A stretch of 64,000 bases of DNA. It comes from Entrophospora sp. SA101 (lineage: Eukaryota > Glomeromycota > Glomeromycetes > Entrophosporales > Entrophosporaceae). A model generated the notes under the pieces. It was given only the letters and a program-made list of their open reading frames with translations, was not told the origin of the DNA and did no database searches. A program made the translations under genes and the position numbers. Where the stretch lies: assembly GCA_958430865.1 (NCBI GenBank), contig CAUDNR010000380.1, forward strand, positions 1-64,000. The letters run 5' to 3'. Shown here piece after piece: positions 11,303 through 49,998 of this stretch. Positions within the stretch are counted from its first letter, which is position 1, and every line of letters starts with the position of its first letter.

Positions 11303-14300
11303 ATGGCAACCAGGTGATTATTATATACAAATTAAATAATACTAATTGTAATTAATTAATCGAATTACACTTATTTCTCTCCTCTTCTTATCCTCTCCTT
11401 CCACCATTTTACTCCCTTGTAATCTAAAAACTAAAAGATTAGATCGTCTGGTTTTACTATTAGATACTGGATCAACACCTGCCATTCGGTCAACTGCTGC
11501 TCAACAATTAGGTGAAATTCAAAAACAACACCCCAGTGAATTACATAATCTTTTGTCAAGGGTAAGTGTAATTAAATAATAATCCATATTCAAAAATAAA
11601 TATTTATTTAAAATCAACTGTTAATCGACTTTTTTATATAAAGGTTATTGTTCATTTAAGTAGTAAAGAATGGGATACACGTCTTGCAGCCGGTCAAGCA
11701 ATTGAAGCAATTGCTAAAAATGTTCCGCATTGGAATCCAATTGAAAGTATGATGATTCGTTTTATGTTTATTTATTTGTTTTTTAAGAGATCTTTTCGCA
11801 AATAATACAAATAATAATAATATTTTTTTATTTGATTTGGTTTAGGCGAAAATGATGATAATAATAATAAATCACAACCATTAAATGATAACAAATATTC
11901 ATTTGATAATTTTGATATTTCGAATGTGATACAAAATGGTAAAACTTTATTAGGCTCTGCAGGAAAGGTATTTTTAAATCAATTAAATTTTTTCATATTT
12001 ATATATATACATACATATATATTGATTGTGTGGATAATGATTGTATTAGGAATATGATCTCGATTTAAGTGATTTGGATCCTGCACAACGTTTAGCATTC
12101 CAACATAAAAATCTTAAAGAAAGATTAGGTTTGGGTGGTGAATTCATGGATGGTAAGTTATTGTTAATCATGATCATTATCAAGATTACGATAATTGTCG
12201 CGGTAAAGTTAATTAAGTGATTCTTCATATAAAAATATAAAGTCGATATATTTGATGATATTGATATAAGTGGAGAAATCAACAACCCATCATCATCATC
12301 ATCAAAAACAAAACAATCAACATCACAAAAAATTGAATTAAACATTCATTTACAACAGCAGCAGCAACAAGCGCAACCAATTACGTTACCGGATGAAATG
12401 TCTGGCTTAAGTGCCAGGGAAAGAAATAAATTAAAAAGGAAAGCAAAAAATGATGCAAAAGCAAAAACAAAAGACAAGTATGTACTGGTTAATATATATT
12501 GATAAGATATTGTCAAAGATATTAGAATTAAAATTAGTTATTTTACATTATTAGATTGCGTGTTGTAGAAGTTGTTGGACGAAAAAACAATAATTTCTCA
12601 TCATCGTCACCATCAAAAAATAAACCTTCTGCAATAAAAGTAGAGGGTAATGATTGGTTATAATATATAAATATTTAGTTATACAATAATTACATCAATA
12701 GATATTAATTAATTATTAATAAATATTTTACAGATTCAATAAAATCCGATAGCCAATTTGATTTTACACCACAACCTTGTTCTGGTAAAATTGTAGTCGA
12801 ATCTAAAAAAGATCCTTCTATGTATAATTATGATGATCAATTAAATGAATGGCCATTTGAAAAAGTCTGTGAATCATTAAGCCTGGCTTTATTTGAGTAT
12901 GTCTTTACTATGTTTTGATATTATATTTATATATATGTGTGTGTGTGTGTGAATGTGCATATAAACTTTCGAATTTTTTTTTTTGAAAAAGTCCATGTTG
13001 GGAAGTTAGACATGGTGCTGGAATTGGATTAAGGGAGATTCTTAAAGTTCATGGAAATGGTGCAGGCCGTATAGGTAAATTGTCACACAATATATATAAA
13101 TTTTTCAATTTTTTTCAAAAATTTAACTGATGGAAAAACGCATATTAATAAAATTACATAGCGGGATTAACCCAACAAGAAAATGAAATACGTCATAACA
13201 AATGGTTAGATGATGTAGCAATCAGATTATTATGTGTTTTTGCTCTTGATAGGTTTGGTGATTTTGTTTCAGATCAGGTAATATTAATGATATTATTCTT
13301 AATAAGATGATGATGAAATAAAATGAAAGGAAATGAAGCATTAACATTTTCTTCCCTTCCCTCCTTCAAAAAAAAAAATCGAAAGGTCGTTGCACCTGTA
13401 CGTGAAACTTGTTCACAAACACTGGGAGCGCTTATTCAATACATGACTTCTCAAAGTGTAGAAAATGTATACAAAATATTAATGAGAATGATATATCAAA
13501 GGGATTTTATTGGTGACAAGCTTTCAATATGGGAAGTGCGTCATGCTGGAATGTTGGGATTAAAATACGCTGTAGCTGTTAGAAGAGATTTGGTTGAAAT
13601 GATGTTAGAGGGTGCTGTTGATGCTGTAGTCTTGGGGTATTTATTTATAATGAATTTTATTATATATATATTCGTTGAGCTTTAAATTTTCTTTCTAATG
13701 AGATGATAAATAATTTATATAGCCTCAAGGATAGTGATGATGATGTTAGAGCTGTTGCTGCATCTATTTTGGTCCCTATAGCCGATTATTTTGTTACTAA
13801 TTCTTCAAATAAAATACCGGAACTTGTAAATGTATTATGGGATTGTTTAAAAGATCTGAAAGATGACTTGACTGCATCAACAGCAAGTGTAATGGATTTA
13901 TTAGGTAAATATCTTTTGATTCGTCTTAGAGTATGATTAATCATGTTATTCATTAATTAACAATAATTATTTGTGTTAATTAATTATTTAGCAAAATTAT
14001 TTTCATTTCCTGTTGTATTGGATTACATGAAAATAGCATCTACTTCAAATATAAAGTAATATTTCATTATCACAATAATAATTGTTTTAAAAGAAAAGAA
14101 AATTTATTTTTTTGTTTGTTTTTTTAGTCACTCTTTATCAACCTTAATTCCACGACTGTATCCATTCTTTCGTCACACAATTACTTCAGTGCGTTCTGCA
14201 GTTCTAAATACTCTTTTGACATTTTTGAGTATGGATGAGGCAGAAGAATGGGTTGATAATCGTGTCATGAGACTTGTATTCCAAAATATGATAGTCGAAG

Positions 14301-17300
14301 AAAAAAAGGTTTGCTGGCTTTTATATATATATATTAATTACAAAAAAATAATTATAATCTAAATTATATTTTTTATTTTGAAAGGATATTCTTGATTTAT
14401 CGCTTGAAGTTTGGTCGAAAATATTATCTCATACAACAAAATCAAGTCAAGAAAACAAAATAATTCAACTAACCTCTCAACATATAGCAACATGGTTTGG
14501 AATTGTTATGACACCGTTGGGCACTCCAATAGATAATAGATTATTTTTTATAACTGAAGGAGCAATACCTATGGAAATAACTCCTGCCACTACTACAGCA
14601 TCTACGTCATCGTCATCATCATCAAATTCAAGATTCCGTGGTCAAAATCGATCCCAAAACACTAATGGTAATAATTCAGATTCGATCGGATATAATATTG
14701 ACGCTGGAATGTTACAACAAGATTTTGCTCTTGTTAGTGTAGATACTGTGCTAAGAGGCAGAGTTATTGCATCTAAAGGTTTAGGAATGTTAATGAGTCG
14801 ATGGCCACTAGAGGTGATTTATTAATTTGTTTTAAATTAAAAAAAGATTTTTAAAGGTTAAAAAAATTAACAGTTTTATTATTATGATTATTATTATTAT
14901 TATTAGTATTTGGATACATCATTTAAAGATAAAATTGTATCACGTCTCTCATCCTCGTGTGCTTCAAATAAACAACTATCTGCTATCGTAGTCGAAGAAT
15001 GGGCAAGATCATTAATAGAAAATCACGGAAACAATACCCTCGATCTAGTCAACACATCACCATTTGCATCCAACATATCCACTTTTATGATATCCATACT
15101 TGAGTCTGACGCTCCAACTTTCTATTCCGAACTTACTACAATTTTACGTAGAATACGCGGCGAATGTCAAGCATTGCTTAATACATTTGTTACAGTTGGA
15201 AAAGTCAATTCTTCAAATATACCCGCTTTACCTACCTGTGTTCTTGGTGAAATAGTAGTAGCCTCCCAACCAGAAAATTCAACTCCTTTATTTAATATTC
15301 AAATGGCTACAGAAATTGCCACTACTACTTATGATAATTTGTCACTTCAAATACTCGACAGGAATCATAGATCTCCTCAGGCCCAACAACAACAGGAAGA
15401 ATGTCAAACTCAACTGCAAGATCGGCATAGACGTGTTTTGAATTCCATAAGTTCCTACGAGTCTACAAAACTAAAAAATGATACAATTGTTTATGCAGCA
15501 ATTGCTAGTGCTGTCGTGGCTTTACAAGCCCTACCACCTAAACTAAATCCTATTATCAGATCAATTATGAATTCAATAAAAAAGGAAGAAAACATCGAAC
15601 TACAACAAAGATCAGCAGCTACATTGGCTAATCTTGTCTTCCTTTGTTCATCGAATCAAAGTGGTACTAGAATTAATCCAAACGATAAGATTGTAAAGAA
15701 CCTTTGTACATTCCTTTGTTCCGACACTACTGTAACACCCGAATTTCAACAAAATAATAATAAAAGGGAAGGCATACTTTCTTTGCAAAAAGCAAAAGAG
15801 TCTGATAAAAACACCACATCATCAACGTCGTCATCTAATGGAGATTTTAATTTAACTGATGATGATAAAATTAAATCGCAGAAATTGATAAGACGTGGCG
15901 CTGAAACTGCATTGAAAGAATTTGCTTCACAGTTTGGGTCAAAGTTATTTGAAATAGTACCAAAATTATGGCATTGCATGCATAATAGTTTAAATAGCGT
16001 ATTAAATAATGGTATGTAGCTTTCTTTTTTTTTTTAAAAAAAAAAGAATAATGAGAATTTATTAACTAATATATTTTGATGACATTGTAATATAGATGAT
16101 GATGAAACAATTGATGCAATGATTTCACAAAATGTTGGAAAAGATATAATCGATTCTCTTCAATTAATTCAATCATTAGTCCCAGCAATTAATGAATCGT
16201 TACATAATAAGGTGCATATACAAAATTATAAAATTCTGTAATCATATTTATATTATAATTAATTAATTTAGATCAAATTACCAATATCGTTTGTTTAAAA
16301 AATTAATAAATTGTTATATCTAGATAACGGAATTACTTCCTTTTATTATTAAAACTGCCAAATGTCAATATCAAGTAATACGTTCAATGGCAGCGAGATG
16401 TTTTGCTTCAATTGCAAATGTAATTACAATGCCATGTATGAAGTTAATAATTGATCAAGTAATGCCTTTATTAGGAGATTCTAAAAATTTGATTCATAGA
16501 CAAGGAGCCGTTGAACTTGTTTATCGTATGTTTTACTATCTATTTTAATTATTATATAGTATCATTATAATATTTTTAATATTTTTAAAAATATATACAA
16601 TAGATGTTGTTCAAACTATGGATGCAAAAATACTTCCTTATGTTATTTTTTTGATTGTTCCAATATTGGGTAGAATGAGTGACGCTGATGAAAATATTCG
16701 TCTTGTGAGTACCAATACTTTTGCAATGTTGATCAAATTAGTACCATTAGAAGTAAGTAGAAATTTTATAAAATAATAATGCTGCACAAGTACATAATTT
16801 TATATTTAAATGAATTTTATTTTTTCCACTATCCAAAATTATTAATAATAAAGGCCGGTATACCTGACCCCCCAGGATTATCTAAAGAATTTTTACAATA
16901 TCGTGAGCATGAACGTAAATTTCTTGGACAGCTTCTTGATAGCAGTAAATTGGATCCTTATGAAATTCCGGTAAAAATAAAAGCAGAATTAAGGAAATAT
17001 CAACAAGAAGGTGTCAATTGGTTGGCTTTCCTAAACAGATATCAATTACATGGTATATTATGTGATGGTATGCATATTATTAATAAATCAATCATTTTTT
17101 TGATCGTTTAAAAACCAATACTAATTATTTAATAAATAAATTTATTAGATATGGGATTAGGAAAAACTTTACAATCTATTTGTATATTGGCTAGTGATCA
17201 CTATGCCCGTCTTCAAAAACATAACGCCACAGAATCTTTAGATTGTCCTTCATTGGTAGTTTGTCCTCCAACATTAACAGGTCATTGGTATCACGAGATC

Positions 17301-19332
17301 ATAAATTACACTGATGATTTGAAACCATTAACTTACACTGGTAACCCTAAAGATCGCGAAAGGTACAGCGAGCAATATGTAATAGATTAATAAATCTCAT
17401 AATAATAATGAATAAGTATCTTACTGATTAATAATCTCTCTCCTTTTTTTAATGATTAGATTAAGACCAAAAATCTTTTGTCACGATGTAGTGATCATGT
17501 CCTATGATATTTTGCGTAATGATCTTGATGAATTATCACAAATAGATTGGAATTATTGTATTTTAGATGAAGGACATGTGATCAAAAATGGAAAGACAAA
17601 AATAACTAAAGCAGTTAAAACCATAAAAGCAAATCATCGATTAATTTTATCTGGTACTCCAATTCAGGTTTGGGGTTTTATTCAAAAATTACATGTGTGT
17701 ATATTGTTGAGGAAATAAGTTAATATATTTATTTTTTTTATTTTTTATTTTTTAAAAAAGAATAATGTATTAGAATTATGGTCACTTTTTGATTTTTTGA
17801 TGCCAGGTTTTTTGGGAACTGAAAAACAATTTAATGATAGATTTGGTAAACCTATTTTATCAAGTAGAGATAGCAAAAGCTCATCGAAAGAGCAAGAAGC
17901 CGGTGCTCTTGCATTAGAAGCTCTACACAAACAAGTATTGCCATTTTTATTACGTCGTCTTAAAGAAGATGTATTGAATGATCTACCACCCAAGATCATT
18001 CAAGATTATTATTGTGAACTCAGCGATCTACAGGTTCGTATTTGTTATCACACATCCAGGAAATCTTTCAAAAAATAATTCTTTTTTTTAACTAAATTTT
18101 TACTAAATTCAAATGTTTCATCCCTCTTTTGCAATTTCTGATTAGAAACAACTTTACGAAGAATTTGCTAAATCACAAACAAAAGGTCCTACGGATACGA
18201 ACATGGAAGATGCTAATGAAGAAGGCGGCGGTGTAAAGAAGACTACCCATATATTTCAAGCTTTGCAATACCTTCGTAAATTGTGTAATCATCCTTTATT
18301 GGTTATGAATGAAAAACATCCTCAATACAATAAAGTTATGGATCGTTTGAAAAATACTCGATCATCCTTACGTGATTTAGAAAACGCGCCCAAGCTTCTT
18401 GCGTTAAAGTATTTAAATTTATTTATTGAACTTTTTTTTAATAAAAAAATTTTTTAAAATTAATACTATCATCTATTTTTTTATTTTTTTAATTTAATAA
18501 TAATAATTAGACAACTTTTGCTTGATTGCGGTATTGGAGTTAATAATGATACCGAAGAGAATACACTCGGAGCTGGTGCAGTTAGCCAACATCGTGCATT
18601 AATATTTTGTCAATTGAAAACTATGTTAGATATTATTGAAAATGATCTTTTCAAACCGTTAATGCCATCAGTAACATTCATGCGGCTTGATGGTTCCATT
18701 GATACTAACAAACGCCATGCGATCGTACAACAATTCAACAAAGATCCGTCAATTGACGTATTGTTGTTAACTACACACGTAGGTGGACTTGGTCTTAATC
18801 TTACAGGTGCAGATACTGTTATCTTTGTTGAACATGATTGGAATCCAATGAAAGATTTACAAGCTATGGATCGTGCACATCGTATTGGACAAAAGAAAGT
18901 AGTGAATGTTTATCGTTTAATTACAAAAGGAACATTAGAAGAAAAGATCATGGGGTATGAATTTGATTTTATTTTATACGGTTATAATTATGCATACTTA
19001 TGACTTTATTATATTTTATTTATAGATTACAAAAGTTCAAATTAAATATCGCAAATTCTGTTGTAAACCAACAAAACTCTGGTTTACAAAGCATGGACAC
19101 TGATCAAATACTTGATTTATTTAATGTAACATTAGATAATCGAAAAGGTGGTTCTAGTGGTGGCGATGGTGGTAGCAGCAGTAGTGATATAGTTTCAAAG
19201 CATAAAAAATTGTCCACAAAGAACATTTTAGAAGGGTTAGACAATTTATGGGACGATTCTCAATATGAAGATCTTAATTTGGATAATTTCATAGAATCAC
19301 TTGGTTCAAAAAAAAAATCAAATAAAAAATAA
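11303..19332 (+). CDS. MOT1: MOT1/BTAF1: TBP-removing Snf2-family ATPase
   Basis: Nuclear Swi2/Snf2 ATPase that strips TATA-binding protein from DNA. 26 hand-derived exons sum to 5754 nt, 1917 aa (yeast Mot1 ~1870, human BTAF1 ~1850). Exons: 11303-11313, 11438-11561, 11644-11746, 11846-11967, 12050-12152, 12243-12477, 12555-12646, 12734-12896, 12992-13074, 13162-13277, 13386-13636, 13723-13904, 13992-14055, 14128-14308, 14385-14813, 14907-16011, 16096-16211, 16324-16525, 16604-16752, 16854-17067, 17149-17362, 17460-17667, 17761-18033, 18146-18408, 18511-18954, 19026-19332. Exon 1 is only 11 nt. The N-terminal HEAT region includes WEVRHGAG and KLSIWEVRHAG. The ATPase has DMGLGKTLQ (Walker A), LDEGHVIKN (DEGH box, typical of MOT1), SGTPIQNNVLELWSLFDFL and HRIGQKKVVNVYRL. 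This is the only complete copy; a truncated one lies at 32518. Confidence 0.95.
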
Positions 19333-19477
19333 TAATAGCAATAATTTTATATGATTTAGTTCTTTAGCAAATAATGTAAAAGATTAGCTAGATATATTTA
19401 ATTACATTAATAAATAATAATATTATAAAAATTAGAATTTATATATATATATTTATATAATATTTACATATATCTCT

Positions 19478-21546
19478 CTATTCTATGACAGTTTCAACAA
19501 TATTATTTTGTTGTTGTTGCTGATGATGTTGTTGCTGTTGCTGCTGTTGCTGCTGTTGCTGATGTTGTTGTTGTTGTTGTTGCTGCTGCTGCTGCTGCTG
19601 CTGACGTTTATCAATAGCAGAGACCAAAAATTGAGAACGAAATGTTAAAAGTTTTGTTCGCTCAATAATTTGTTGATAAATAGATGTATGATTTTGATTC
19701 ATGATAACGGTATTCTTTTTTACAAGAATAAAAATTTGTTAATTATTATTTATATTATTAATCCCAATATCGATTTTTAACAAATAACACATTTATAATT
19801 AAATTAATTCTTCTTCACCTCTTTAAAATCCATTTTTGCATCAACTCGTGTATCTCTAATTAAATTTACGATCCATTTTTCACCTTCGTCTTGATTTAAA
19901 TTAAGTGTTTTTGTTAAACCGCTGAATTATTATTATCATCATCGTAAATTGTAATTTAATAAAAAAATTATTGTTTAAATAAGTAAATTCTTTCCACATA
20001 AAAAAAAAAAAAATTATTTATAATAACTTACGCAAAATCAATCTTTAAATGTATTCTACAATATGTTTCAGAGATAAGGTAACGAGCATTTTCTATAAAC
20101 TCCATTTTTGTTGCCACCAAAAAAAAATCATTTGAAAGTACCTCTTCACATTCCTTTAATTTATGTTGAGCACCTTCAAAATCAAAATTTACGTAAAGGC
20201 TCTCAATGAACTCAGTAATAGGATCTTTATATTCATAACTTTCTTGCTGAATAATCTTGACCAAATCTTTTAAATTATTTTTTCGACGTTTATTAGTAAC
20301 TACAGCTGTCGTTAAATATCGGAGAATCCACGGACATGAAGTCTGAATAGTGTTGATGTAAGACGGATTAAAGAATAAATCTATGATATTATCACGACCT
20401 TTAGGATGATTAAAAAATACAAATATTGACCAATGAATAAACCAAGTTCTTTGCTGTAATTGATGAAGAGGTGATGTAAAAAACTATATGAACAAATAAT
20501 AGGGATTGTGTTGAATTTAATTTAATTGAATTAGAAATTTAATTAGATCAACAACTCATTAAAATCGTTAAAATTATGGTTTTATTATTATTACTATTAT
20601 TACCTTTTGGTCAAATGTCTCTCTTAATTGTTGAACGTCTTCTAAAGCAGAATCCCAATTTAAATCCAAAATGTCGGAAGCAAGCTTTCCCCATAATGCA
20701 GAGAGATTGAGTTCATTGTTTGTTGACTATATGCATAGATATTAGTCCAAGGTCATTTTAATTAATTAAATATTACATGTATAAATTCTTAATTTAAATT
20801 GAAGAAAAGCGCCACAAACCAACACTCGAAAATGATACAGCATATCGGAAGCACCACCATAATTGCCACAATTATATTGAAATTGACCAAACTGATACAA
20901 AGTATTAACCATTTCATCTGTAAGCTAACAAAATTAACATCAATACATAAATTATACAAGTCAGTTAATGACAATAATAGAATCAAAGCTGTGTTTCTTT
21001 ATTACCTCATAATTATCTTTAAGAAAGGTTAGATTTTGTGATATGTCTTGACGAAGAGCCTCAATTACTTCTGGGTTTTCTATTATATCCAATACCTTTT
21101 GTGCCTCTATTTGAAGATTTACAAGTGTTTGAAGAACACCTTCTCTTTTTATAGAAAATTCTTTAAAAATAAATGAATAAAACAAAAGTATTTATCGTTA
21201 TTGTGTTTGATCTAACAGTATTTTATGTTGATTATTTATTGTGACAATAATTAAGTTAATTGTTTACCCTCAGGAGCTGATTCTACTTGATGGATTTCCA
21301 TATAAAGTCCTGAGGTAAAATCAACCATATTGGTCTTAGCCAAGAGTTCATATTTAGCTTTTAATAAATCTTCTCTAGGATAAATCTGAAAAAAAGGCTT
21401 TCCCATGAGTAATTGTCAACAATAATTTGATTTTTTTAAAAACGATAATAAAAAACCTCATTCATAGACAAAAATTCTAATAATGGAAAGACAAGGTGTC
21501 TATCCAAATAAGGAATCATTCGAGGTATAAGATCGTAAGAAGCCAT
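19478..21546 (-). CDS. EIF3E: Translation initiation factor eIF3 subunit e (INT6), copy 1
   Basis: PCI-domain subunit of eIF3, cytoplasmic, acting in 40S/mRNA recruitment. Exons on the minus strand: 21457-21546, 21268-21385, 21006-21160, 20820-20924, 20604-20726, 20032-20483, 19819-19921, 19478-19714; 1383 nt, 460 aa (human 445). The start [20 protein letters not shown] and blocks such as [54 protein letters not shown] and [18 protein letters not shown] align well with the animal INT6 proteins I know. The last exon carries a polyglutamine/His tail after residue ~420 (CAG/CAA repeats at about 19508-19602), where animal proteins have a short acidic, aromatic tail. It converges on MOT1 (145 bp between stops) and diverges from NDUFS2 with 105 bp between start codons. 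Confidence 0.93.
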
Positions 21547-21651
21547 TAAAAGAAAAATTTTTTTTAAAAATTTTTTTTTCTATTTCGTTAATGATCAACA
21601 TTCAAACAAAAATTTTGCAGACCCAAAGCTTTTTTATTAATCATAACGAAA
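21547..21651. promoter_or_regulatory. Shared divergent promoter between eIF3e and NDUFS2, copy 1
   Basis: Only 105 bp separate the start codon of eIF3e (minus) from that of NDUFS2 (plus), so both 5' leaders and core promoters must lie here or overlap the neighbouring gene. The sequence has poly-T/poly-A blocks (about 21553-21580), the kind of nucleosome-disfavouring tract common in compact bidirectional fungal promoters. Inference from spacing; no specific factor site is claimed. Confidence 0.6.
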
Positions 21652-23460
21652 ATGTTTTTCCTCAGAAACACTTCAAAATTTTGTAGATCCAGCCAGCTTT
21701 TACTCCCTAGAATCGCGAAACCTTATATATTTAAACAAAACTCGTTATTATCAAATAATAAGTTATTATTAAAAGCTATAACTACAGAAACTAAAGGACA
21801 TGATTCATACTCTGTCAGAGCTACTCACTTGGTCACAGATGATTTACCAAAATTATCAATCGAAGAAGGCCTTGAAAGTAAAGCCATTCTTCGATATTTA
21901 TTTAATATATGACTATTTCTATCGATTATATTAATGATTTTTTTCACAAATTAAATTAATTACACATGTAGAAACAATATCGGGAGAATTCCAAGAATTG
22001 TTAAGTAAGCATGAATAATTTCATCTGGTATGGTTGTATATTTTCATTTTCTTTAACAATACTTAACGAAAAAATAATCAGCTACCAAAGATCCACAAGA
22101 ATCTTCAAAGAGTACATACACAATAAATTTTGGACCGCAACATCCAGCTGCTCATGGAGTTCTTCGATTGATTTTGGAATTAGATGGTGAAGTGATAAAA
22201 AGAGCAGATCCGCATATTGGTCTTTTACATAGAGGAACAGAAAAACTTATAGAATATAAAACTTATTTACAGGCACTCCCATATTTTGATCGTTTAGATT
22301 ATGTTTCAATGATGACAAATGAGCAATGTTATTCATTAGCAGTTGAGAAATTGTTGAATATTGAAATTCCCGAACGTGCAAAATTTATTCGTACATTGTT
22401 TGGAGAAATTACAAGAGTATTAAATCATATTATGGCAACAATGTCTCACGCACTTGGTGATTATAAAAGCAACAAAAAATTTATTTTTATTTTTTTTTTT
22501 ATAAAAAAATATATTTATTAAATTTAATTATAGATATCGGTGCATTGACACCTTTCTTATGGATGTTTGAGGAAAGAGAAAAGGTTACAATAAATATTTT
22601 TATTTTATTTTATTTGCAGTGATTAGTGCCTTTTACATTCGATATATTTTATATATATATATATACACACATATACACATAAAAAAGACTAATAGAATTT
22701 ATAATTTTTAGTTAATGGAATATTATGAACGTGTATCGGGAGCTCGAATGCACGCAGCATATGTACGACCAGGCGGAGTGTCTCAGGATATGCCATTAGG
22801 CTTGATGGAAGATATATATCAATGGGCAACACAATTCGGTGCTCGCGTAGATGAAGTTGAAGAGGTTTTATCAGCAAATCGTATATGGAAAAATAGGACT
22901 ATGGATGTTGGTTTAGTTACTGCACAGCAAGCACTGGATTATAGTTTTTCTGGTGTGATGTTACGTGGCTCAGGTATCAATTGGGACATACGTAAAGTTC
23001 AACCATATGACGCATATGATAAAGTTGAATTTGATGTCCCAGTTGGTACAAAAGGTGACTGTTACGATCGTTTTCTTTGTCGTGTCGAAGAAATGCGACA
23101 AAGTCTAAGGATTATTCATCAATGTTTGAACAAAATGCCAACCGGAGCTGTTAAAACCGATGATTGGAAAATAGTTCCTCCTAATAGATCGTCCATGAAA
23201 GAGTCTATGGAGGCATTAATTCATCATTTCAAGTTATTTTCTGAAGGTTTTACTGTTCCACCCGGAGAAACTTATACTGCAATTGAAGCACCCAAAGGTA
23301 TATCGCTGTTTAACTATTCCATTCATTGCCAACTGACTATTAAATTACTAAATATTCTTTGTTTATACAATAATTTTCCATCTATAATATGTGGTACCTA
23401 GGGGAATTTGGTGTTTATTTAGTTTCAGATGGTAATTAAATAATTAAATCTTTTAATATT

Positions 23461-23492
<32 letters not shown>

Positions 23493-23860
23493 TTTTAAAC
23501 CAGTTATTTATAAAATATACTCGCTGATTTAAATTTTTACAAAAGGCACCAATCGTCCATATAGGTGTAAAATACGCGCACCAGGTTTTGCACATTTAGC
23601 TGGTTCAAACTTCATGAGTACTGATCATTTTATTGCTGACATGGTAGCAAGTATGTTAATTATATTTAAATTTTATCCGTCTTTTAATTACTATGGTGAA
23701 GTTGATACTTATGAATTTTAATTATATATGTAGTTATCGGTACTATGGATGTAGTCTTTGGTGAAATTGGTAAGTTGAAACAAAGTCTTATTTTCTCCCC
23801 AATTATAAAAGTTTATCATTAATTATTAAAATGATTTATTATTGTTGTTTAGATCGATAA
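21652..23860 (+). CDS. NDUFS2: Mitochondrial complex I 49-kDa subunit (NDUFS2), copy 1
   Basis: Nuclear-encoded core subunit of NADH:ubiquinone oxidoreductase that helps form the quinone pocket. Exons: 21652-21877, 21972-22004, 22082-22456, 22534-22583, 22712-23297, 23402-23431, 23546-23650, 23734-23769, 23853-23860; 1449 nt, 482 aa. The N-terminus [20 protein letters not shown], rich in Arg/Ser and hydrophobic residues, looks like a mitochondrial targeting peptide. Conserved blocks: [72 protein letters not shown] and the terminal EIDR. The last exon is only 8 nt and supplies the final Asp/Arg and stop. The retained motifs leave no doubt about the family. Confidence 0.95.
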
Positions 23861-25295
23861 TCACGAATAACATTGACGAGTTTCTTTAATATGATCTTTC
23901 TTTTTTGACAAAATCATGATCATAATAATAGTAATAATAATAATAATAATTTAATTACAATTTATTTATTTATGTTTAAATTCTTTTTTAACCATTAACC
24001 ATAATGATGAAATACAACTTAAATTTTACTTAATCGACTTTTATAATCGTATCATCATGGTTTGAAATATTTTAATGCTGTATGTATATATGTGTATATA
24101 GATATATTTCATGAATATTTGAAATAAATTCCAAAAAACATATTACTGTGGTATTTCAAAATGACGCTTTCTTTGAAGGAAGAGACATTGATTATTTCTA
24201 TAATAATAACAACAAATATTATTATGAATGGCTCGGTCTAAAGACTCCTATTGCTGTGCCACACGCTCAAATTTCAAAAATTGCGATTTCGTGATTCGTT
24301 CAAAAATGCAATAACAGTCAAACGATATGTCACGGGAGGTGTAATTGCATACAGTCAGACCTCTATAAATGCACCTTTCATAAATGCACACCCTCCATAC
24401 TTTGTACTGCACGGTATTTTTTCAGTCCACTCATATGAAAACACCCTCCATAAATGCACCCCCTTGGTCCCAAGGGGGTGCATTTATGGAGGTCTGACTA
24501 TTAAAATAGAAACCCAGACTCGTGTAACCAATCTGTTTTTTTTAAAATATCTCATTATTTTTATAACAAATTCAATCATCATTATTAATCAAAAATAAAA
24601 CTATGACATTATAGCTTTCTAACGAGCCCTCTCCCGTATTGATAGAGTCTCTCTATGTCAAGCTATATTTATTCAAAAACAACATTACTTTTTACTTCAA
24701 AGCTACCTTTATAAACTTGGTGAGTGGTTGAAAAGATGTAAAATATTGTAAGTTTTCATATAGGTATAGCTTTATGTGGATTGTTTATTAAAATTTGGTG
24801 AAAATGGCAAAAACCCCAAAAACATAAGTTTATTTATGTCAATACACAGTGTATAAATTCCAGTGTGTAACTAATGCAGATTTCTACAAATTTAGAAACT
24901 ATCTGCAGAAAACTACTAATGTACGATGTTACACCCGCACATTGAATTTTATACCAATTAATTTCCAAATGCGGTAATTTGGTTGATAAACTTTAACACC
25001 AATATTTTTTTCTATTTTATTAATAACCTCTCCTAATTTTTTTTCTAAAAGAAGGAATAAGTCCTGTGTCTCAAATTTAGCAAAAAAAGGTTAAAATTAA
25101 GGTTTGTGACTAATTTTATTAATAGAATTTCGATGTTGATCACCAAAAAATTTCGGAAAATACACTTTGTGACGGATAATGACACTTGATCTGCAATGTT
25201 AATCTGTCATGTGAATTAGAAAGCCCCACCCACGAATTTGAAAATGATCTATATACCGCATAATTACATCAAATTTGTGTGTACGTATCCTTAAA
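23861..25295. other. Intergenic region with a small MITE, copy 1
   Basis: Non-coding region between NDUFS2 and VPS5, AT-rich, with a (TAA)n run near 23930-23950. The only structure I recognise is the palindromic element at 24352-24500. A 115-codon open frame across it (24251-24598) translates the element's own repeats and is not a gene. Confidence 0.5.
24352..24500. mobile_element. ~150-bp palindromic MITE, copy 1
   Basis: Ends AGTCAGACCTCTATAAATGC (from 24353) and, reversed at the right, AGTCAGACCTCCATAAATGC. The right half contains a perfect hairpin: arms 24445-24467 and 24470-24492 (23 bp, CCTCCATAAATGCACCCCCT...) around a 2-nt loop. The ATAAATGCAC motif occurs four times in total. The style recalls pogo-like elements with repeated sub-terminal motifs; I could not establish a clean TA duplication at both ends. 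The same element sits in copy 2 at 43135-43283. Confidence 0.65.
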
Positions 25296-38115: not shown

Positions 38116-38260
38116 TAATAGCAATAATTTTATATGATTTAGTTCTTTAGCAAATAATGTAAAAGATTAGCTAGATATATTTAATTACATTAATAAATAA
38201 TAATATTATAAAAATTAGAATTTATATATATATATTTATATAATATTTACATATATCTCT

Positions 38261-40329
38261 CTATTCTATGACAGTTTCAACAATATTATTTTGTTGTTGT
38301 TGCTGATGATGTTGTTGCTGTTGCTGCTGTTGCTGCTGTTGCTGATGTTGTTGTTGTTGTTGTTGCTGCTGCTGCTGCTGCTGCTGACGTTTATCAATAG
38401 CAGAGACCAAAAATTGAGAACGAAATGTTAAAAGTTTTGTTCGCTCAATAATTTGTTGATAAATAGATGTATGATTTTGATTCATGATAACGGTATTCTT
38501 TTTTACAAGAATAAAAATTTGTTAATTATTATTTATATTATTAATCCCAATATCGATTTTTAACAAATAACACATTTATAATTAAATTAATTCTTCTTCA
38601 CCTCTTTAAAATCCATTTTTGCATCAACTCGTGTATCTCTAATTAAATTTACGATCCATTTTTCACCTTCGTCTTGATTTAAATTAAGTGTTTTTGTTAA
38701 ACCGCTGAATTATTATTATCATCATCGTAAATTGTAATTTAATAAAAAAATTATTGTTTAAATAAGTAAATTCTTTCCACATAAAAAAAAAAAAAATTAT
38801 TTATAATAACTTACGCAAAATCAATCTTTAAATGTATTCTACAATATGTTTCAGAGATAAGGTAACGAGCATTTTCTATAAACTCCATTTTTGTTGCCAC
38901 CAAAAAAAAATCATTTGAAAGTACCTCTTCACATTCCTTTAATTTATGTTGAGCACCTTCAAAATCAAAATTTACGTAAAGGCTCTCAATGAACTCAGTA
39001 ATAGGATCTTTATATTCATAACTTTCTTGCTGAATAATCTTGACCAAATCTTTTAAATTATTTTTTCGACGTTTATTAGTAACTACAGCTGTCGTTAAAT
39101 ATCGGAGAATCCACGGACATGAAGTCTGAATAGTGTTGATGTAAGACGGATTAAAGAATAAATCTATGATATTATCACGACCTTTAGGATGATTAAAAAA
39201 TACAAATATTGACCAATGAATAAACCAAGTTCTTTGCTGTAATTGATGAAGAGGTGATGTAAAAAACTATATGAACAAATAATAGGGATTGTGTTGAATT
39301 TAATTTAATTGAATTAGAAATTTAATTAGATCAACAACTCATTAAAATCGTTAAAATTATGGTTTTATTATTATTACTATTATTACCTTTTGGTCAAATG
39401 TCTCTCTTAATTGTTGAACGTCTTCTAAAGCAGAATCCCAATTTAAATCCAAAATGTCGGAAGCAAGCTTTCCCCATAATGCAGAGAGATTGAGTTCATT
39501 GTTTGTTGACTATATGCATAGATATTAGTCCAAGGTCATTTTAATTAATTAAATATTACATGTATAAATTCTTAATTTAAATTGAAGAAAAGCGCCACAA
39601 ACCAACACTCGAAAATGATACAGCATATCGGAAGCACCACCATAATTGCCACAATTATATTGAAATTGACCAAACTGATACAAAGTATTAACCATTTCAT
39701 CTGTAAGCTAACAAAATTAACATCAATACATAAATTATACAAGTCAGTTAATGACAATAATAGAATCAAAGCTGTGTTTCTTTATTACCTCATAATTATC
39801 TTTAAGAAAGGTTAGATTTTGTGATATGTCTTGACGAAGAGCCTCAATTACTTCTGGGTTTTCTATTATATCCAATACCTTTTGTGCCTCTATTTGAAGA
39901 TTTACAAGTGTTTGAAGAACACCTTCTCTTTTTATAGAAAATTCTTTAAAAATAAATGAATAAAACAAAAGTATTTATCGTTATTGTGTTTGATCTAACA
40001 GTATTTTATGTTGATTATTTATTGTGACAATAATTAAGTTAATTGTTTACCCTCAGGAGCTGATTCTACTTGATGGATTTCCATATAAAGTCCTGAGGTA
40101 AAATCAACCATATTGGTCTTAGCCAAGAGTTCATATTTAGCTTTTAATAAATCTTCTCTAGGATAAATCTGAAAAAAAGGCTTTCCCATGAGTAATTGTC
40201 AACAATAATTTGATTTTTTTAAAAACGATAATAAAAAACCTCATTCATAGACAAAAATTCTAATAATGGAAAGACAAGGTGTCTATCCAAATAAGGAATC
40301 ATTCGAGGTATAAGATCGTAAGAAGCCAT
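38261..40329 (-). CDS. EIF3E: Translation initiation factor eIF3 subunit e (INT6), copy 2
   Basis: Complete second copy of the 19478-21546 gene, all frames identical, 460 aa. It keeps the polyQ tail (about 38291-38386), the 105-bp divergent spacing to NDUFS2 and the 145-bp convergent spacing to the MOT1 remnant. The CAG/CAA tract length matches copy 1 exactly. That is notable because such tracts change quickly, and it argues for a very recent duplication or an artefact. Confidence 0.92.
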
Positions 40330-40434
40330 TAAAAGAAAAATTTTTTTTAAAAATTTTTTTTTCTATTTCGTTAATGATCAACATTCAAACAAAAATTTTG
40401 CAGACCCAAAGCTTTTTTATTAATCATAACGAAA
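40330..40434. promoter_or_regulatory. Shared divergent promoter eIF3e/NDUFS2, copy 2
   Basis: Same 105-bp arrangement as at 21547-21651, so both genes of the pair keep their complete intergenic promoter in copy 2. Confidence 0.6.
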
Positions 40435-42243
40435 ATGTTTTTCCTCAGAAACACTTCAAAATTTTGTAGATCCAGCCAGCTTTTACTCCCTAGAATCGCG
40501 AAACCTTATATATTTAAACAAAACTCGTTATTATCAAATAATAAGTTATTATTAAAAGCTATAACTACAGAAACTAAAGGACATGATTCATACTCTGTCA
40601 GAGCTACTCACTTGGTCACAGATGATTTACCAAAATTATCAATCGAAGAAGGCCTTGAAAGTAAAGCCATTCTTCGATATTTATTTAATATATGACTATT
40701 TCTATCGATTATATTAATGATTTTTTTCACAAATTAAATTAATTACACATGTAGAAACAATATCGGGAGAATTCCAAGAATTGTTAAGTAAGCATGAATA
40801 ATTTCATCTGGTATGGTTGTATATTTTCATTTTCTTTAACAATACTTAACGAAAAAATAATCAGCTACCAAAGATCCACAAGAATCTTCAAAGAGTACAT
40901 ACACAATAAATTTTGGACCGCAACATCCAGCTGCTCATGGAGTTCTTCGATTGATTTTGGAATTAGATGGTGAAGTGATAAAAAGAGCAGATCCGCATAT
41001 TGGTCTTTTACATAGAGGAACAGAAAAACTTATAGAATATAAAACTTATTTACAGGCACTCCCATATTTTGATCGTTTAGATTATGTTTCAATGATGACA
41101 AATGAGCAATGTTATTCATTAGCAGTTGAGAAATTGTTGAATATTGAAATTCCCGAACGTGCAAAATTTATTCGTACATTGTTTGGAGAAATTACAAGAG
41201 TATTAAATCATATTATGGCAACAATGTCTCACGCACTTGGTGATTATAAAAGCAACAAAAAATTTATTTTTATTTTTTTTTTTATAAAAAAATATATTTA
41301 TTAAATTTAATTATAGATATCGGTGCATTGACACCTTTCTTATGGATGTTTGAGGAAAGAGAAAAGGTTACAATAAATATTTTTATTTTATTTTATTTGC
41401 AGTGATTAGTGCCTTTTACATTCGATATATTTTATATATATATATATACACACATATACACATAAAAAAGACTAATAGAATTTATAATTTTTAGTTAATG
41501 GAATATTATGAACGTGTATCGGGAGCTCGAATGCACGCAGCATATGTACGACCAGGCGGAGTGTCTCAGGATATGCCATTAGGCTTGATGGAAGATATAT
41601 ATCAATGGGCAACACAATTCGGTGCTCGCGTAGATGAAGTTGAAGAGGTTTTATCAGCAAATCGTATATGGAAAAATAGGACTATGGATGTTGGTTTAGT
41701 TACTGCACAGCAAGCACTGGATTATAGTTTTTCTGGTGTGATGTTACGTGGCTCAGGTATCAATTGGGACATACGTAAAGTTCAACCATATGACGCATAT
41801 GATAAAGTTGAATTTGATGTCCCAGTTGGTACAAAAGGTGACTGTTACGATCGTTTTCTTTGTCGTGTCGAAGAAATGCGACAAAGTCTAAGGATTATTC
41901 ATCAATGTTTGAACAAAATGCCAACCGGAGCTGTTAAAACCGATGATTGGAAAATAGTTCCTCCTAATAGATCGTCCATGAAAGAGTCTATGGAGGCATT
42001 AATTCATCATTTCAAGTTATTTTCTGAAGGTTTTACTGTTCCACCCGGAGAAACTTATACTGCAATTGAAGCACCCAAAGGTATATCGCTGTTTAACTAT
42101 TCCATTCATTGCCAACTGACTATTAAATTACTAAATATTCTTTGTTTATACAATAATTTTCCATCTATAATATGTGGTACCTAGGGGAATTTGGTGTTTA
42201 TTTAGTTTCAGATGGTAATTAAATAATTAAATCTTTTAATATT

Positions 42244-42275
<32 letters not shown>

Positions 42276-42643
42276 TTTTAAACCAGTTATTTATAAAATA
42301 TACTCGCTGATTTAAATTTTTACAAAAGGCACCAATCGTCCATATAGGTGTAAAATACGCGCACCAGGTTTTGCACATTTAGCTGGTTCAAACTTCATGA
42401 GTACTGATCATTTTATTGCTGACATGGTAGCAAGTATGTTAATTATATTTAAATTTTATCCGTCTTTTAATTACTATGGTGAAGTTGATACTTATGAATT
42501 TTAATTATATATGTAGTTATCGGTACTATGGATGTAGTCTTTGGTGAAATTGGTAAGTTGAAACAAAGTCTTATTTTCTCCCCAATTATAAAAGTTTATC
42601 ATTAATTATTAAAATGATTTATTATTGTTGTTTAGATCGATAA
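40435..42643 (+). CDS. NDUFS2: Mitochondrial complex I 49-kDa subunit (NDUFS2), copy 2
   Basis: Complete second copy of 21652-23860 with the same nine-exon structure (offset 18,783), including the 8-nt last exon, targeting peptide and all conserved quinone-pocket motifs. No inactivating change seen. Complex I assembly needs fixed stoichiometry, so two active copies would be unusual and could reveal dosage tolerance. Confidence 0.93.
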
Positions 42644-44078
42644 TCACGAATAACATTGACGAGTTTCTTTAATATGATCTTTCTTTTTTGACAAAATCAT
42701 GATCATAATAATAGTAATAATAATAATAATAATTTAATTACAATTTATTTATTTATGTTTAAATTCTTTTTTAACCATTAACCATAATGATGAAATACAA
42801 CTTAAATTTTACTTAATCGACTTTTATAATCGTATCATCATGGTTTGAAATATTTTAATGCTGTATGTATATATGTGTATATAGATATATTTCATGAATA
42901 TTTGAAATAAATTCCAAAAAACATATTACTGTGGTATTTCAAAATGACGCTTTCTTTGAAGGAAGAGACATTGATTATTTCTATAATAATAACAACAAAT
43001 ATTATTATGAATGGCTCGGTCTAAAGACTCCTATTGCTGTGCCACACGCTCAAATTTCAAAAATTGCGATTTCGTGATTCGTTCAAAAATGCAATAACAG
43101 TCAAACGATATGTCACGGGAGGTGTAATTGCATACAGTCAGACCTCTATAAATGCACCTTTCATAAATGCACACCCTCCATACTTTGTACTGCACGGTAT
43201 TTTTTCAGTCCACTCATATGAAAACACCCTCCATAAATGCACCCCCTTGGTCCCAAGGGGGTGCATTTATGGAGGTCTGACTATTAAAATAGAAACCCAG
43301 ACTCGTGTAACCAATCTGTTTTTTTTAAAATATCTCATTATTTTTATAACAAATTCAATCATCATTATTAATCAAAAATAAAACTATGACATTATAGCTT
43401 TCTAACGAGCCCTCTCCCGTATTGATAGAGTCTCTCTATGTCAAGCTATATTTATTCAAAAACAACATTACTTTTTACTTCAAAGCTACCTTTATAAACT
43501 TGGTGAGTGGTTGAAAAGATGTAAAATATTGTAAGTTTTCATATAGGTATAGCTTTATGTGGATTGTTTATTAAAATTTGGTGAAAATGGCAAAAACCCC
43601 AAAAACATAAGTTTATTTATGTCAATACACAGTGTATAAATTCCAGTGTGTAACTAATGCAGATTTCTACAAATTTAGAAACTATCTGCAGAAAACTACT
43701 AATGTACGATGTTACACCCGCACATTGAATTTTATACCAATTAATTTCCAAATGCGGTAATTTGGTTGATAAACTTTAACACCAATATTTTTTTCTATTT
43801 TATTAATAACCTCTCCTAATTTTTTTTCTAAAAGAAGGAATAAGTCCTGTGTCTCAAATTTAGCAAAAAAAGGTTAAAATTAAGGTTTGTGACTAATTTT
43901 ATTAATAGAATTTCGATGTTGATCACCAAAAAATTTCGGAAAATACACTTTGTGACGGATAATGACACTTGATCTGCAATGTTAATCTGTCATGTGAATT
44001 AGAAAGCCCCACCCACGAATTTGAAAATGATCTATATACCGCATAATTACATCAAATTTGTGTGTACGTATCCTTAAA
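42644..44078. other. Intergenic region with a small MITE, copy 2
   Basis: Duplicate of 23861-25295. The palindromic MITE lies at 43135-43283; nothing further seen. Confidence 0.5.
43135..43283. mobile_element. ~150-bp palindromic MITE, copy 2
   Basis: Copy carried along by the segmental duplication, with the same 23-bp perfect hairpin (arms about 43228-43250 and 43253-43275). It is not an independent insertion. Confidence 0.65.
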
Positions 44079-45883
44079 ATGTCGTCTACAAACGAATTCG
44101 AAAATACTTTTGAAGATTTGCTTCATAAACCCACAATCAACTCCATATCAGACACTTTAAGTGATGTTGATGTTTCAAATCCTTTTCATGATACCATCTC
44201 ATCATTAATTGCACCAGAAAAGATAAATGAAGAAACCGACTTCATGAGTGAATATAGCAGTTCTATAAACAATGTTTTTGCAAATGATATTTCAGATCCT
44301 TTAGAAAGTATGTTGAGTTCGGCCATTTCTGAAACTAAACTATCTGATGAGGAAATTTTTAATAATTATCATGATAATTATGATGACGACGATGAAAGAG
44401 AATTTGAAAATATAGAAGTTTCATCGACTAAAGATCTTGATGTCATCGCTTCATTTTCTATTCAGAGTCAAACACATGAAGAAACTAACAATTACGAAGA
44501 ATTGGTTGATGAAAATTATGATGATAATAATAATAACAATATTAGTAATAGTAGTAGCATTCAGGAACAGAATGATAATGAAGACATTATTTCTAATCAT
44601 GTAATTGATCACATAATTTTTAATTTTTTGGTATTATTATTATTTAATTTATTAACATATTATTATTATTTACTTCTCATAGTATAATCAATTTGATGGT
44701 TCAGAAAATGGGCTGAATCCTATATTTGAGATTTCAGTGGAAGATCCTCAAAAGATTGGTGATCCAATTAATGCTCGCATTGTATATAAAGTTAGAACTA
44801 AGGCATGTTTTGATTTCAAATTTAAAAAAACATAAATATATTTTTTTTCAAATTAAATTAATGATTTTTTTTTATTTGTTTTAGACATCATCAAAAGATT
44901 TTAAAAGCAACGATTTTACGGTTTTGAGAAGATATCGTGATTTCTTATGGTTGTATAATCAGCTTACACTTGGGAATCCAGGTGTAATTGTTCCCCCACT
45001 TCCAGAAAAGCACGCTATGGGTAAATTAATGAGTTATTAATTTAAATTAATAGCTTTATAAATTAATTTATATATTTTTGGAGTTAGGACGTTTTCAGGA
45101 TGAATTCATAGAAAACCGTCGTCAGGCGCTTGAAAAATGTTTGAATAAAATTATTTCACATCCAAATTTATACAAAGATCGAGATTTGAAAATATTCTTA
45201 GAATCTGATAATTTTAACATTGATGTAGTATTTAAGGGATCATTCATAATGAATATTTTTTAACCATAACAGAATTAACTTATATATAAATGCATATATG
45301 TTTTTATTTAGGTAAGGAGAAATGAAGAACCCAAGGGTGTTTTAAAATCATTGGGTGAAGCTGTTTCTAATGTTACCGCATTTAATAAGTTTACTGAAAT
45401 GGATGATGTGAGTAAACTAACTCCACAACTCATAATTATGTTAGTTTTTGTACTTATGAGAAGAAAAAAAAAGACTGGTTACAATGTAAAAAAACTTTTA
45501 ATTTAGTGGTTTGAAGGCCGTAAAAACCAATTAGATATACTCGAATCACAATTGAAAACACTGCTTAAATCTGCCGAGTTGGTTGTTAGACAACAGAAGG
45601 GTGTTTATTATTATTGTTATATTTGTTATCTTTTTATTTTTATCAAGCAAAAGTTATTTAATCTTGAAAATCCTAATCGACTGATTTTAATACAATGTTT
45701 TAATAGACCTTGGAGGTTCAGCAATTGAATTTGGTGATAGTTTGTTTGCATTATCTGATGTTGAAGTTAATAAACCATTAGCAAACAATTTATCAACTTT
45801 AGGGAAATTGCAACAAAAAATTAGAGAATTACACATAAAACAGGTCAACTGACTTTATTTAAATTATATGCGCACATATATAC

Positions 45884-45920
<37 letters not shown>

Positions 45921-46584
45921 ATATTGGATTTTTAGGCACGTCAAGATGTTTTAACATTGGAAAATACCATTGAAGAATATATTCGCATCATTGGATCAAT
46001 TAAAGTTAGTAATAATGCCAATAATACTGATAAAAAAATTTTTATTGATTTTTTAAACAATAAAATTTTTTTGAAAATTAGGTGGCTTTAAATTCAAGGA
46101 CTAAAGTTTATCAAAATTGGCAAAGCGCTATGAATGATTTGCAAAAAAAAAAATTAAATTATGAAAGATCAAAATCACAAAACAGATTAAGTCAAGAAAG
46201 ACTTTCATACATGTTGGCTATAATTGCGGAGGTTATTATTATTATGCTGCTAAACCTCAAGATAAGTTTTCAAACTAAATATAAACGATTGTCATTTTAG
46301 GGTGAAAACAAAGTTGAAGATTGTAGACATGAATTTGAAGATGTTACAAAATTGATTAAGGCAGAATTGGACAGATTTGATAAAGAAAAAGTCGAAGATT
46401 TTAAAAATAGTATCGAGTCATTTTTGGATTCTATTATAAAAACTAAAAATGAGGTAAGTTAATTTATTGAACTTTAATAATTTCAATTTTTCAAATCTTC
46501 ACGATTTATAATCTTAATTGTTTATAGATAATCAAATTATGGGAATCGTTTTATCAAGAAATCGAATCACACCAAAGTTTTTAA
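44079..46584 (+). CDS. VPS5: Sorting nexin VPS5/SNX1-type, copy 2
   Basis: Complete second copy of 25296-27801 (557 aa, 11 exons), including the GC-AG intron (44803-44884) and the (TA)n microsatellite in the intron near 45887-45916, which is the same length in both copies. Confidence 0.9.
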
Positions 46585-46923
46585 ATTGATGAAAATAAAG
46601 GCAACAACAGTAATAATAAATAATAGTAGCAGTAGTAATATAATAACAATAATGACAGCAATCATTTAATTAATTCTTATGACCTTCTTTTCACCTAACG
46701 TTCATTCACCTTAATTGTATAATATTTAATTAATTTAGTTTTCGTTTTTGGAAATGTTAATTATGTATGATGAAATAAATATTTATTTGCCAAGTTTCTT
46801 TTAATAAAATTTTTTTCCTCCATAATAAAAGGTTTACATGATGATTTCTTTTAACAATCTTAAAATCAACAATTAATTGTCTTTGACCATATTGTCTCCC
46901 AATATTTACAAACCTTTATTTAT
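46585..46923. other. Convergent 3' spacer VPS5/VTA1, copy 2
   Basis: Duplicate of 27802-28140; non-coding. Confidence 0.5.
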
Positions 46924-47392
46924 TTAGTTATTATAAGATTCTAGTAATGCTTTAGCCTTGTCTATATTTTCTATAGCAGTTTTAAAATCATTATAGTTTA
47001 AAGCACTTACTGCCCATTTACAATATTTTTGAGCAGTTGCAACTGTGTTTGGATCTATTTCACAATGACTATTTGATTTTAAGTTTAGAGTTGATCTTGT
47101 TGGCTGTTGTTGCTGACCGGTTGAAGTAGTTGCATTTGGTGTTCTTTGTTGTTGTGGTAATTGTGAGTGGTGCGGTTGTATTGAGGATGGAGCCGTTTGT
47201 GTTGGTGTTATTGATTGAATATAATTAAAAGGTTGAATTGCTTGAAATGTTTGCGATTGTTGAGATGTTTGTTGTGGAATATGAGAAAGGTTGGAAACAA
47301 CAGGTTGTTGGTAGAACAAGTCATTGTTGTAGCCGTTTGCATTAGATTGCGGTAGTGATGGTGACGTTTGATGAAGCTGTTGCTGTTGTTGT

Positions 47393-47424
<32 letters not shown>

Positions 47425-48716
47425 ATTGTTATGATGATATTGTGGATTTTGTTCATAAAATGCAGGTGCATTTGAATTAAGTTGTTCAGAAAAATCCGAT
47501 TGTATAATTGGCTGTTGGTTATTAAACTTATCAAATGACATATTGGATGTAAGTAATTCGTTATTATTATTATTATTATTATTATCATTATTACTGTTGT
47601 TGTTATTATTACTATTAAGATTAACTTTGTTAAATTCACCATTTGATTTGGGTGGTAAAGGAGGCCCGGTTGTTGAAACATTTGATAATGGTGCTGAAGG
47701 AAATTGATCAATTCCAGGGACAAAACCAATATTATTATTAATATCATCTTTATTATTGTCAGGTGCTTGTTGACCTGCATTAGTATTAACATTATCAACG
47801 TAAGTTGGTTCTTGTGATGTAGGATCACCTCCAGGAGGACCAGCAATTGGTCTTTGACCATCCCTCAATGCCTTAATAATATGTGCAGCCTTCCATTTCG
47901 CATATTTAATTTTATTTTCGACCTTTAAATTATATTATTCAATTCAGATGATATATTCATAAAATATCAAAATATTATGATCAACAATTTTTTAAACATA
48001 TATAAGATTACAAAATATAAATATGCTGATGTACATACCTCAGGACTTAATTCACCAAATATCTTTAGTAGCTCCAAGAATATAGATGATGCCAAAAAAG
48101 TCATCGCAGTTTGCCTATAGAATAATTAACGTATGCATGTGTTTTCGATTATTATTCTTTAAAAATTAGAAAAATTTTATTATTGTATATAAAAAAACCA
48201 TTGTCCTCATTTATACTTTGTGGCCTTCCCAGCCCTATCAATGTTATCGGCATTTAGGAAAATTTTTATGGCAAAATTTTCTACGAATGCTTCACCGACG
48301 ATATCATTTGTAACTGCCTCATTATTTGAAAACTTTTTCTTTTCCTATGAATAAATAGGCAGGTAAATTGATGGATATATGGGATATATGTAACAATAAA
48401 AATTATCAATGTTTTACAAATGGATAAATTGATACCTTTTCAAGAACATCTAATAGTTTAAAAAGAAAATTTTGACTTTCTCCTTTTTCTTTTGTTCCTT
48501 TTTCAATGGCTAATTTTGCTGCGTAATAATTGCCTATACAAATAAATCTTTTAATAAGAAATTGGTTGTTGTTAGCTCGTTTGAAACCAACAGTAACAAA
48601 ATGGCTTTCTTACAATAATAAGCTATTATTGGCTCTCTTTGTTGTAATTCTTGTGCTCGTTGAAGATAAGGACTAATGAATTTGAGTTCATTTGGTAATG
48701 GTGGTAATGAATTCAT
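46924..48716 (-). CDS. VTA1: VTA1, activator of Vps4, copy 2
   Basis: Complete second copy of 28141-29933, 467 aa, with identical polyQ and polyN tracts. Its upstream DNA (R3, 48697-49998) is followed by unique sequence, so this copy probably sits in the original right-hand context, while copy 1 lies next to the R-R junction. Confidence 0.92.
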
Positions 48717-49998
48717 TTTGTGAGGAGAAAAGGAAATTTTTATTATTTTTATGCATCTAAAAAACAAATGACAATTTTAATTTAAATTAATATGGGGCCC
48801 CTGAAAGCTTCTAATTGAGGTTCCAGGCAAACAAAGGGTGGAGAATGATATTATTACGTATAAGACTTTTAAGGGTAAAAATGATATTTACAATATTAAA
48901 TCCTTTGAATAGCAAATGAAATTAAAAGCTTAAATGAAAACGTCATTACTATTACTGTATAATAATAACGGATCATTATAAAAAAAAAGTCCGTTATATT
49001 AATATCAAAGATAATAAAAAATAATAAGGTGATTTGCTAAAATGGAAAGTGAAAAATAATGGGGGGTCAAAAGGGACGCTCACCTCCTCTTGTGATACCC
49101 TTCTTTCACCAACAAGAACCCATTTTCTTGCTGTACTAGTACCGTTTTACAATCTTAATGAAGAAATTGTTAAAATCAACAGGAAACATAATACACACAC
49201 ATCTAAACTCGATAAGTCGGACGCAGCAATCAATTGTTTAATGAATAAAAAATATTATTAAGCATTGACGGCACATTTTGATGGTCATTTACAAAAAAGA
49301 ATTCGATTCAGGGGCCCTCTCAAAAAATTTGTGTAATAGACCGTGTAACGTGCAAATGTTGAGACCTCCCATATCTAAACACGTTATTTTCTGGCCTTTC
49401 CCCCCAAAAAATATTTTTTATCGCGCCATTTTTTTTTTAAAAAAAATGGCTTCAAACTTCAACGAAAGATTGTGTTAATGTAAAAAACTATAAAGATAAT
49501 AATATTATTAGAGATAGTAATATTATTAAAGATAAAAATAATATCAAAACAACAGATATTGTAAAGATAAAAATACAATTGTATTAAGAAAGTTAATACC
49601 AAATGCACGTTCAGGTTGGTAAATGCCATAAATGCCAGAATTGGAAGAGGGTGGAGTCATCAAAGAGCTCTTTTCATAAAAAATACAATTTTTTTTCTTG
49701 GCTTTTAATAAGGTGTATATTTATTTTTTAATAAAGAAATATATTTGCCCGTATAGATCGATGTTATTCTTTTTTTACAAACGTTCGTTAAATAAATAAA
49801 TAAAAAGTTGATTTTGCTGTTCCGTGAAAAGAAAAGCATTCGTACGAAAGTGAATATTCATTACTTCAGGATTGAATGTTGAACATTGAATTATTAACTT
49901 TACACTGCAAATTAACTACATTGGTTATTATTTTATAAGCAAGGTGTTTGTTATTAGTTGGACATAAACGTCAGAGTCTTTTCCCACCATCGACTCCA
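48697..49998. repeat. 1302-bp repeat R, copy 3
   Basis: Third identical copy of R. Beyond CGACTCCA the sequence becomes unique (TGTGAAGTTATTGACTCG from 49999). This is probably the ancestral right junction, because R ends at this same base in all three copies. Confidence 0.93.

Follow-up and report, generated by a model that had tools for sequence, protein, structure and literature searches.

Organization of the repeated block and its genes

The window, that is, the stretch of 64,000 bases analysed here, is the first part of contig C356 (123,096 bp in total) and has a GC content of 28%. Its central part carries, all on the plus strand, a segment D of 16,178 bp (13736-29913), a segment R (29914-31215), an extra lone copy of R (31216-32517), a second copy of D, termed D' (32518-48696; 16,179 bp), and a third copy of R (48697-49998), which stands in its native place adjoining a segment E. 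The first-pass annotation had described this nested D-R-R-D'-R order together with the near-identity of the 17.5-kb copies, and sequence comparison reproduced the order and every boundary to the base. The three copies of R (1,302 bp each) show no difference, and D-R differs from D'-R by a single inserted T in 17,480 bp, where TT in D (16113) reads TTT in D' (34895). Exact repeats as long as D-R cannot be due to chance. Because the extra T is the sole difference, none of the 24 homopolymer runs of at least 8 and none of the nine di- or trinucleotide repeats of at least six units contained in D-R differs between the copies, so that the microsatellites are indeed unchanged, as had been noted. Full-length R occurs four times among the genome matches listed, each time within C356.

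The extent originally given to the block, 13736-49998, is exact as D-R-R-D'-R, but the repeated block is wider. A further copy on the same contig (copy 3, described below) matches 6444-31215 and 32518-56420, which brings in a segment A on the left (6444-13735, plus strand), absent before D', and a segment E on the right (49999-55983, plus strand) with an arrestin-like gene and its neighbours. A frame of 705 aa at 6599 gave no match in a protein search. At the left contig end, 150-738 form an inverted repeat of about 80% identity over 612 aligned bases. Within R, positions 497-545 (30410-30458 of the window) hold a dispersed motif of 45-49 bases that recurs throughout the genome in dozens of near-exact copies, in several places with an inverted partner no more than about 100 bases away.

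Pfam domains identify the gene content of D-R as the 3' part of BTAF1/Mot1 (DUF3535 and helicase domains), eIF3e, NDUFS2 (the Complex I 49 kDa subunit), a Vps5-like protein and VTA1, where gene names that go beyond the Pfam labels are our interpretation. All of these lie in D except for the start of VTA1. The VTA1 ATG is found at 29933-29931 on the minus strand, and R contains the upstream region of this gene together with the initial 20 bases of its coding frame. The block had been said to double four intact housekeeping genes. This is a fair description of eIF3e, the Vps5-like sorting nexin, NDUFS2 and VTA1, which would be intact in both copies as judged from domains that lie inside D-R and recur in an unchanged copy. 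It does not hold for BTAF1/Mot1, the largest gene, whose copy in D' starts in the middle of an exon, is without roughly the first 480 residues (Mot1 numbering, from the alignment) and carries the extra T at 34895 (plus strand) in a coding exon that aligns to Mot1, resulting in a frameshift and a premature stop after ...DDETI. The Vps5-like/VTA1 stretch (25311-29593) also has an older, diverged, collinear copy on the minus strand of another contig (C1525:56329-60458; 80% and 69% identity), which may represent a true ancient duplication.

Seams, a third copy and the edges of the block

Within C356, the A-D join occurs twice, D-R three times and R-E twice. The R-R join (31215/31216, plus strand) and the R-D' join (32517/32518, plus strand) each occur once, and both have 0 bp of microhomology. 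The join at the left edge of the block (X-A) is likewise found only once, and a single count alone is therefore no proof of a false join. There is no N at either seam, nor anywhere between D-R, R and D'-R, so the seams are not plain scaffold gaps. The A-D join lies inside a coding exon whose translation aligns to Mot1 across the join, which indicates that A-D is the native order and that R-D' cuts the exon. The R-D' seam leaves an open frame (32458-32718) that fuses R sequence to the BTAF1 exon, probably by chance.

Both seams share the identical donor base, the one with which R ends. It is unlikely that two independent breaks would hit a single position, while ready-made pieces with a shared end, pasted end to end, would give both seams directly. 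The common donor base and the lack of microhomology thus argue for a joining of ready-made pieces.

Comparison of the whole contig with itself revealed copy 3 at C356:75658-106854, in the unrearranged order A-D-R-E. It starts at the very next base after a run of 10 N (C356:75648-75657), which we read as a scaffold gap. The first 7,292 bases after the gap (C356:75658-82949) correspond to segment A, and the longer stretch C356:75658-100429 corresponds to window 6444-31215 with one mismatch in 24,772 bp. On the other side, C356:82950-106854 and window 32518-56420 are 99.9% identical. Up to window position 55983, copy 3 differs from D'-R-E by one substitution and two single-base indels, one of the indels lying in E, which follows R in copy 3 too. 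The extra T of D' is absent from both D and copy 3. The remaining differences, 14 mismatches and 2 gaps, cluster in the final 430 bases, which belong to a dispersed repeat that we call 'el'.

The sequence in front of the gap exists in a second context. The 8,172 bases C356:67476-75647, which end at the last base before the gap, recur on the minus strand at C562:13344-21515 with 3 mismatches. Beyond the shared end, C562 has no N and continues into sequence unlike the beginning of copy 3, with a frame that stays open for 119 codons across this point, 89 before it and 30 after. On the other side of the shared 8.2 kb, C562 and C356 are only about 66% identical over 1.5 kb. The gap join in C356 would accordingly appear to be a wrong one, although C562 may be a second place carrying the 8.2 kb and not the true continuation.

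At the right edge, the window and copy 3 diverge in 'el' (55871-56420, plus strand), which has dozens of relatives among the matches listed. A hAT-like transposon (56421-59033, plus strand) with inverted ends of about 42 bases and a frame at 57388-58851 sits at the end of 'el' in the window. A relative of this element in C1240 is flanked by an 8-base target repeat on both sides, whereas the window element has the repeat on its left side only, and the sequence that completes 'el' in copy 3 was not found beyond the window element. We therefore reject a plain transposon insertion as the cause of the split: there is no right target repeat and no rest of 'el' after the element. A switch inside repeats, by assembly or recombination, fits better, and the two flanks of the element may come from different copies. 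The transposon protein encoded at 57388 has 84 relatives, of which 7 carry an organism name: six are from Rhizophagus clarus, Cetraspora, Gigaspora and Dentiscutata, all members of the Glomeromycotina, and one, distant, is from an ant. The best named relative is 53% identical. Together with the low GC content of the window (28%), these relatives point to an arbuscular mycorrhizal fungus or something closely related.

Near-exact copies elsewhere in the assembly

Nine probes of 1.3-2.4 kb along C356, chosen non-randomly at edges and gaps of knowledge, were compared with the whole genome. Six of the nine matched another contig at 98% or more over at least 1.2 kb, and three had no such match. Transposons or dispersed repeats are present in several of the probes; as real copies are to be expected there, part of this matching is ordinary repetition. 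One probe has two exact matches of 1,501 bases in C1613 that run in opposite directions, and one of these two extends at 99.6% over 5.5 kb. Another is exact over 1,541 bases in C562, and for a third, C1116, C878 and C223 each contain an exact match of 2,001 bases. Two stretches of C878 match C356 with a common offset of 37,176, and as judged from these matches, about 13 kb beyond 'el' may be common to the two contigs.

Near-exact copies were also found within single contigs. We compared seven same-contig, same-orientation pairs, picked for equal match scores and spacing and hence no random sample, and all seven were 100% identical over the aligned part. In four pairs the copies lie far apart: 61,929 bases in C1151 (3,000 bases aligned), 67,206 in C1982 (2,000 aligned), 66,443 in C1960 (2,000 aligned) and 110,644 in C2103 (1,500 aligned). 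The others are spaced by 4,901 bases in C1725 (2,500 aligned), 4,816 in C610 (2,100 aligned) and 10,115 in C1400 (898 of 1,100 aligned). In C610, the exact block measures 4,186 bases inside a longer match of 99.2%, and the first 10,000 bases of this contig contain no N. Further pairs with equal scores and spacing appear in the match listing, for example in C2005, C1710, C1318 and C449.

As a test less tied to C356, we carried out profile searches for the 20S proteasome family (PF00227) and the CCT/Hsp60 family (PF00118) and grouped the loci by hand. Members of both families are normally single-copy, and about 14 and 9 loci are expected. The searches returned 78 matches grouped into 36 loci for PF00227 and 75 matches grouped into 19 loci for PF00118, an excess of 36 versus about 14 and of 19 versus about 9. 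Some of the family loci stand alone (e.g. C1624, C221 and C15), and some near pairs have unequal scores (C1068/C2070 and C1902/C1572); real paralogues may thus be among the loci counted.

The proteasome loci were further compared as DNA, using 12 pairs from seven groups that were picked for equal scores and are not a random sample; all 12 were 99.0-100% identical (eight at 100%, three at 99.9% and one at 99.0%). C1256 contains four exact copies of a 1-kb stretch of a proteasome gene within 96.6 kb. C2 contains three copies, one of them inverted, C1683 two, inverted (600 bases), and C714 two, 2,179 bases apart. We considered and rejected a whole-genome duplication, which would not place four exact copies of one gene in one contig. 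In C636, two copies of a CCT-like gene (7277-9270 and 11441-12839) lie 4,164 bases apart, and at its 3' end the second covers less of the family profile; this pair is perhaps another seam of the D-R-R-D'-R kind. Taken together, the nested duplication of the window is best read as one instance of wide redundancy in this assembly.

Origin of the duplication

Comparison of the copies and their surroundings leads us to conclude that D-R-R-D'-R is very probably a false duplication, made in assembly from redundant overlapping contigs, and not a young biological rearrangement. Both possibilities had been raised in the first-pass annotation. The simple copy 3 behind the gap and the wide near-exact redundancy support an assembly artefact of overlapping reads or haplotypes, and for the same reasons an extremely young complex rearrangement finds no support.

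More specifically, there would be a single true locus in the order A-D-R-E, from which overlapping pieces were kept as separate: a first that stops where R stops, a second consisting of R alone, a third running from D through R into E, and a fourth starting from A. Joining the first three end to end, with the 17.48-kb overlap left untrimmed, would produce D-R-R-D'-R, and the fourth would have been scaffolded after the rest, behind the 10-N gap. The extra T in D' would be a consensus error in a redundant copy. As for the program step responsible, the seams without N could stem from overlaps that were left untrimmed or from gaps that were filled wrongly, and the 10-N join from scaffolding. The assembly step was possibly fed by chimeric amplified DNA, as the inverted copies would suggest.

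These steps have counterparts among described artefacts. One report states that false duplications of the overlap type often have the size of a corrected read, and that scaffolding turns them into tandem copies with a gap (PMC8081667); with 17.5 kb, the repeat would have a size compatible with a long read. According to a second report, false copies mostly have gaps between them and are in some cases connected through erroneous gap filling (PMC9516828). Gaps between copies, copies at contig boundaries, corrected-read lengths and wrong gap filling are the features that these two sources describe (PMC9516828, PMC8081667).

The locus resembles the false homotype duplication of these sources in several respects (PMC8081667, PMC9516828). 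Near-identical copies of one locus lie in one scaffold, with one indel between D-R and D'-R and one mismatch in 24,772 bp to copy 3, 'el' being the exception. Copy 3 is preceded by 10 N and begins at a contig boundary. Genes would be falsely doubled or truncated, and PF00227 and PF00118 have more loci than expected of single-copy genes. Unlike in the described pattern, the overlap here is nested (D-R, R, D-R) with no N at the seams between D-R, R and D'-R, and inverted as well as three- to fourfold copies occur elsewhere in this assembly. The right edge of the block also speaks against an artefact of this kind: the window and copy 3 differ in 'el' by the 14 mismatches and 2 gaps and then continue differently, which would not be expected if a single contig had simply been repeated.

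A possible, if rather doubtful, variant is that chimeric molecules from whole-genome amplification or library making were trusted by the assembler. The duplication would still be false, though with reads that do cross the seams, and this explanation overlaps with redundant assembly of one locus without excluding it. Palindromes formed in amplification (PMC6218980, PMC13265396) could give the inverted near-exact copies within single contigs (C2, C1683 and C1613); AM fungal genomes have also been assembled from single nuclei after amplification (PMC10512289). However, independent chimeras would not be expected to share a donor base and to lack microhomology at both seams, and one chimeric molecule seems too short to hold exact copies that are separated by about 62 to 111 kb.

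Variation between haplotypes or nuclei is an improbable source. AM fungi can carry two nuclear types, and in this explanation one would have A-D-R-E and the other D-R-R-D-R, with both merged into one scaffold. It would account for the differences of copy 3 in 'el' and the right flank, and haplotype contigs put in the wrong place are named among the causes of false duplications (PMC8081667). False heterotype duplication, as outlined in the same two sources, is similar in that alternative contigs of one locus stand in tandem across a scaffold gap (PMC8081667, PMC9516828). It is dissimilar in that the copies here show almost no divergence outside one repeat and that several loci have more than two copies. 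Haplotype-specific divergence was not found between D'-R-E (to 55983) and copy 3, where one substitution and two indels are the only differences and more appear only in 'el'. Moreover, three- and fourfold copies exceed two haplotypes, and the seams would still require a mechanism.

A real, extremely young rearrangement is very improbable. A broken end of R would have served twice as run-off template, once for R and then for D-R, followed by blunt end joining and reconnection to E; a single broken template end would explain both the common stop base and the blunt joins. Direct orientation, adjacent copies and doubled genes are shared with true tandem segmental duplications. The breakpoint homology or microhomology of recombination or template switching was not seen at either seam (0 bp at both), although blunt end joining would still permit a true duplication. 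Two breaks at one base, the simple copy behind a gap and near-exact redundancy throughout the assembly set the locus apart from such duplications, and there is zero divergence even in microsatellites, while the BTAF1 copy in D' lacks its head and carries a premature stop. Very improbable, too, is a genome of a glomeromycete-like fungus full of very recent near-exact multi-copy amplifications, direct and inverted, in which broken ends were copied by run-off and the products joined bluntly, with D-R-R-D-R as one case.

The nested arrangement most likely does not exist as biology. Numbers of genes, of segmental duplications and of 'gene family expansions' drawn from this assembly would be inflated, by about two- to two-and-a-half-fold in PF00227 and PF00118 relative to the expected counts. 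Should the arrangement be real after all, its two breaks at one base would belong to a very fresh duplication. An open frame of 12,221 codons is reported around one CCT-like gene (C1942:34980-36653), perhaps because a stretch of N was counted as open.
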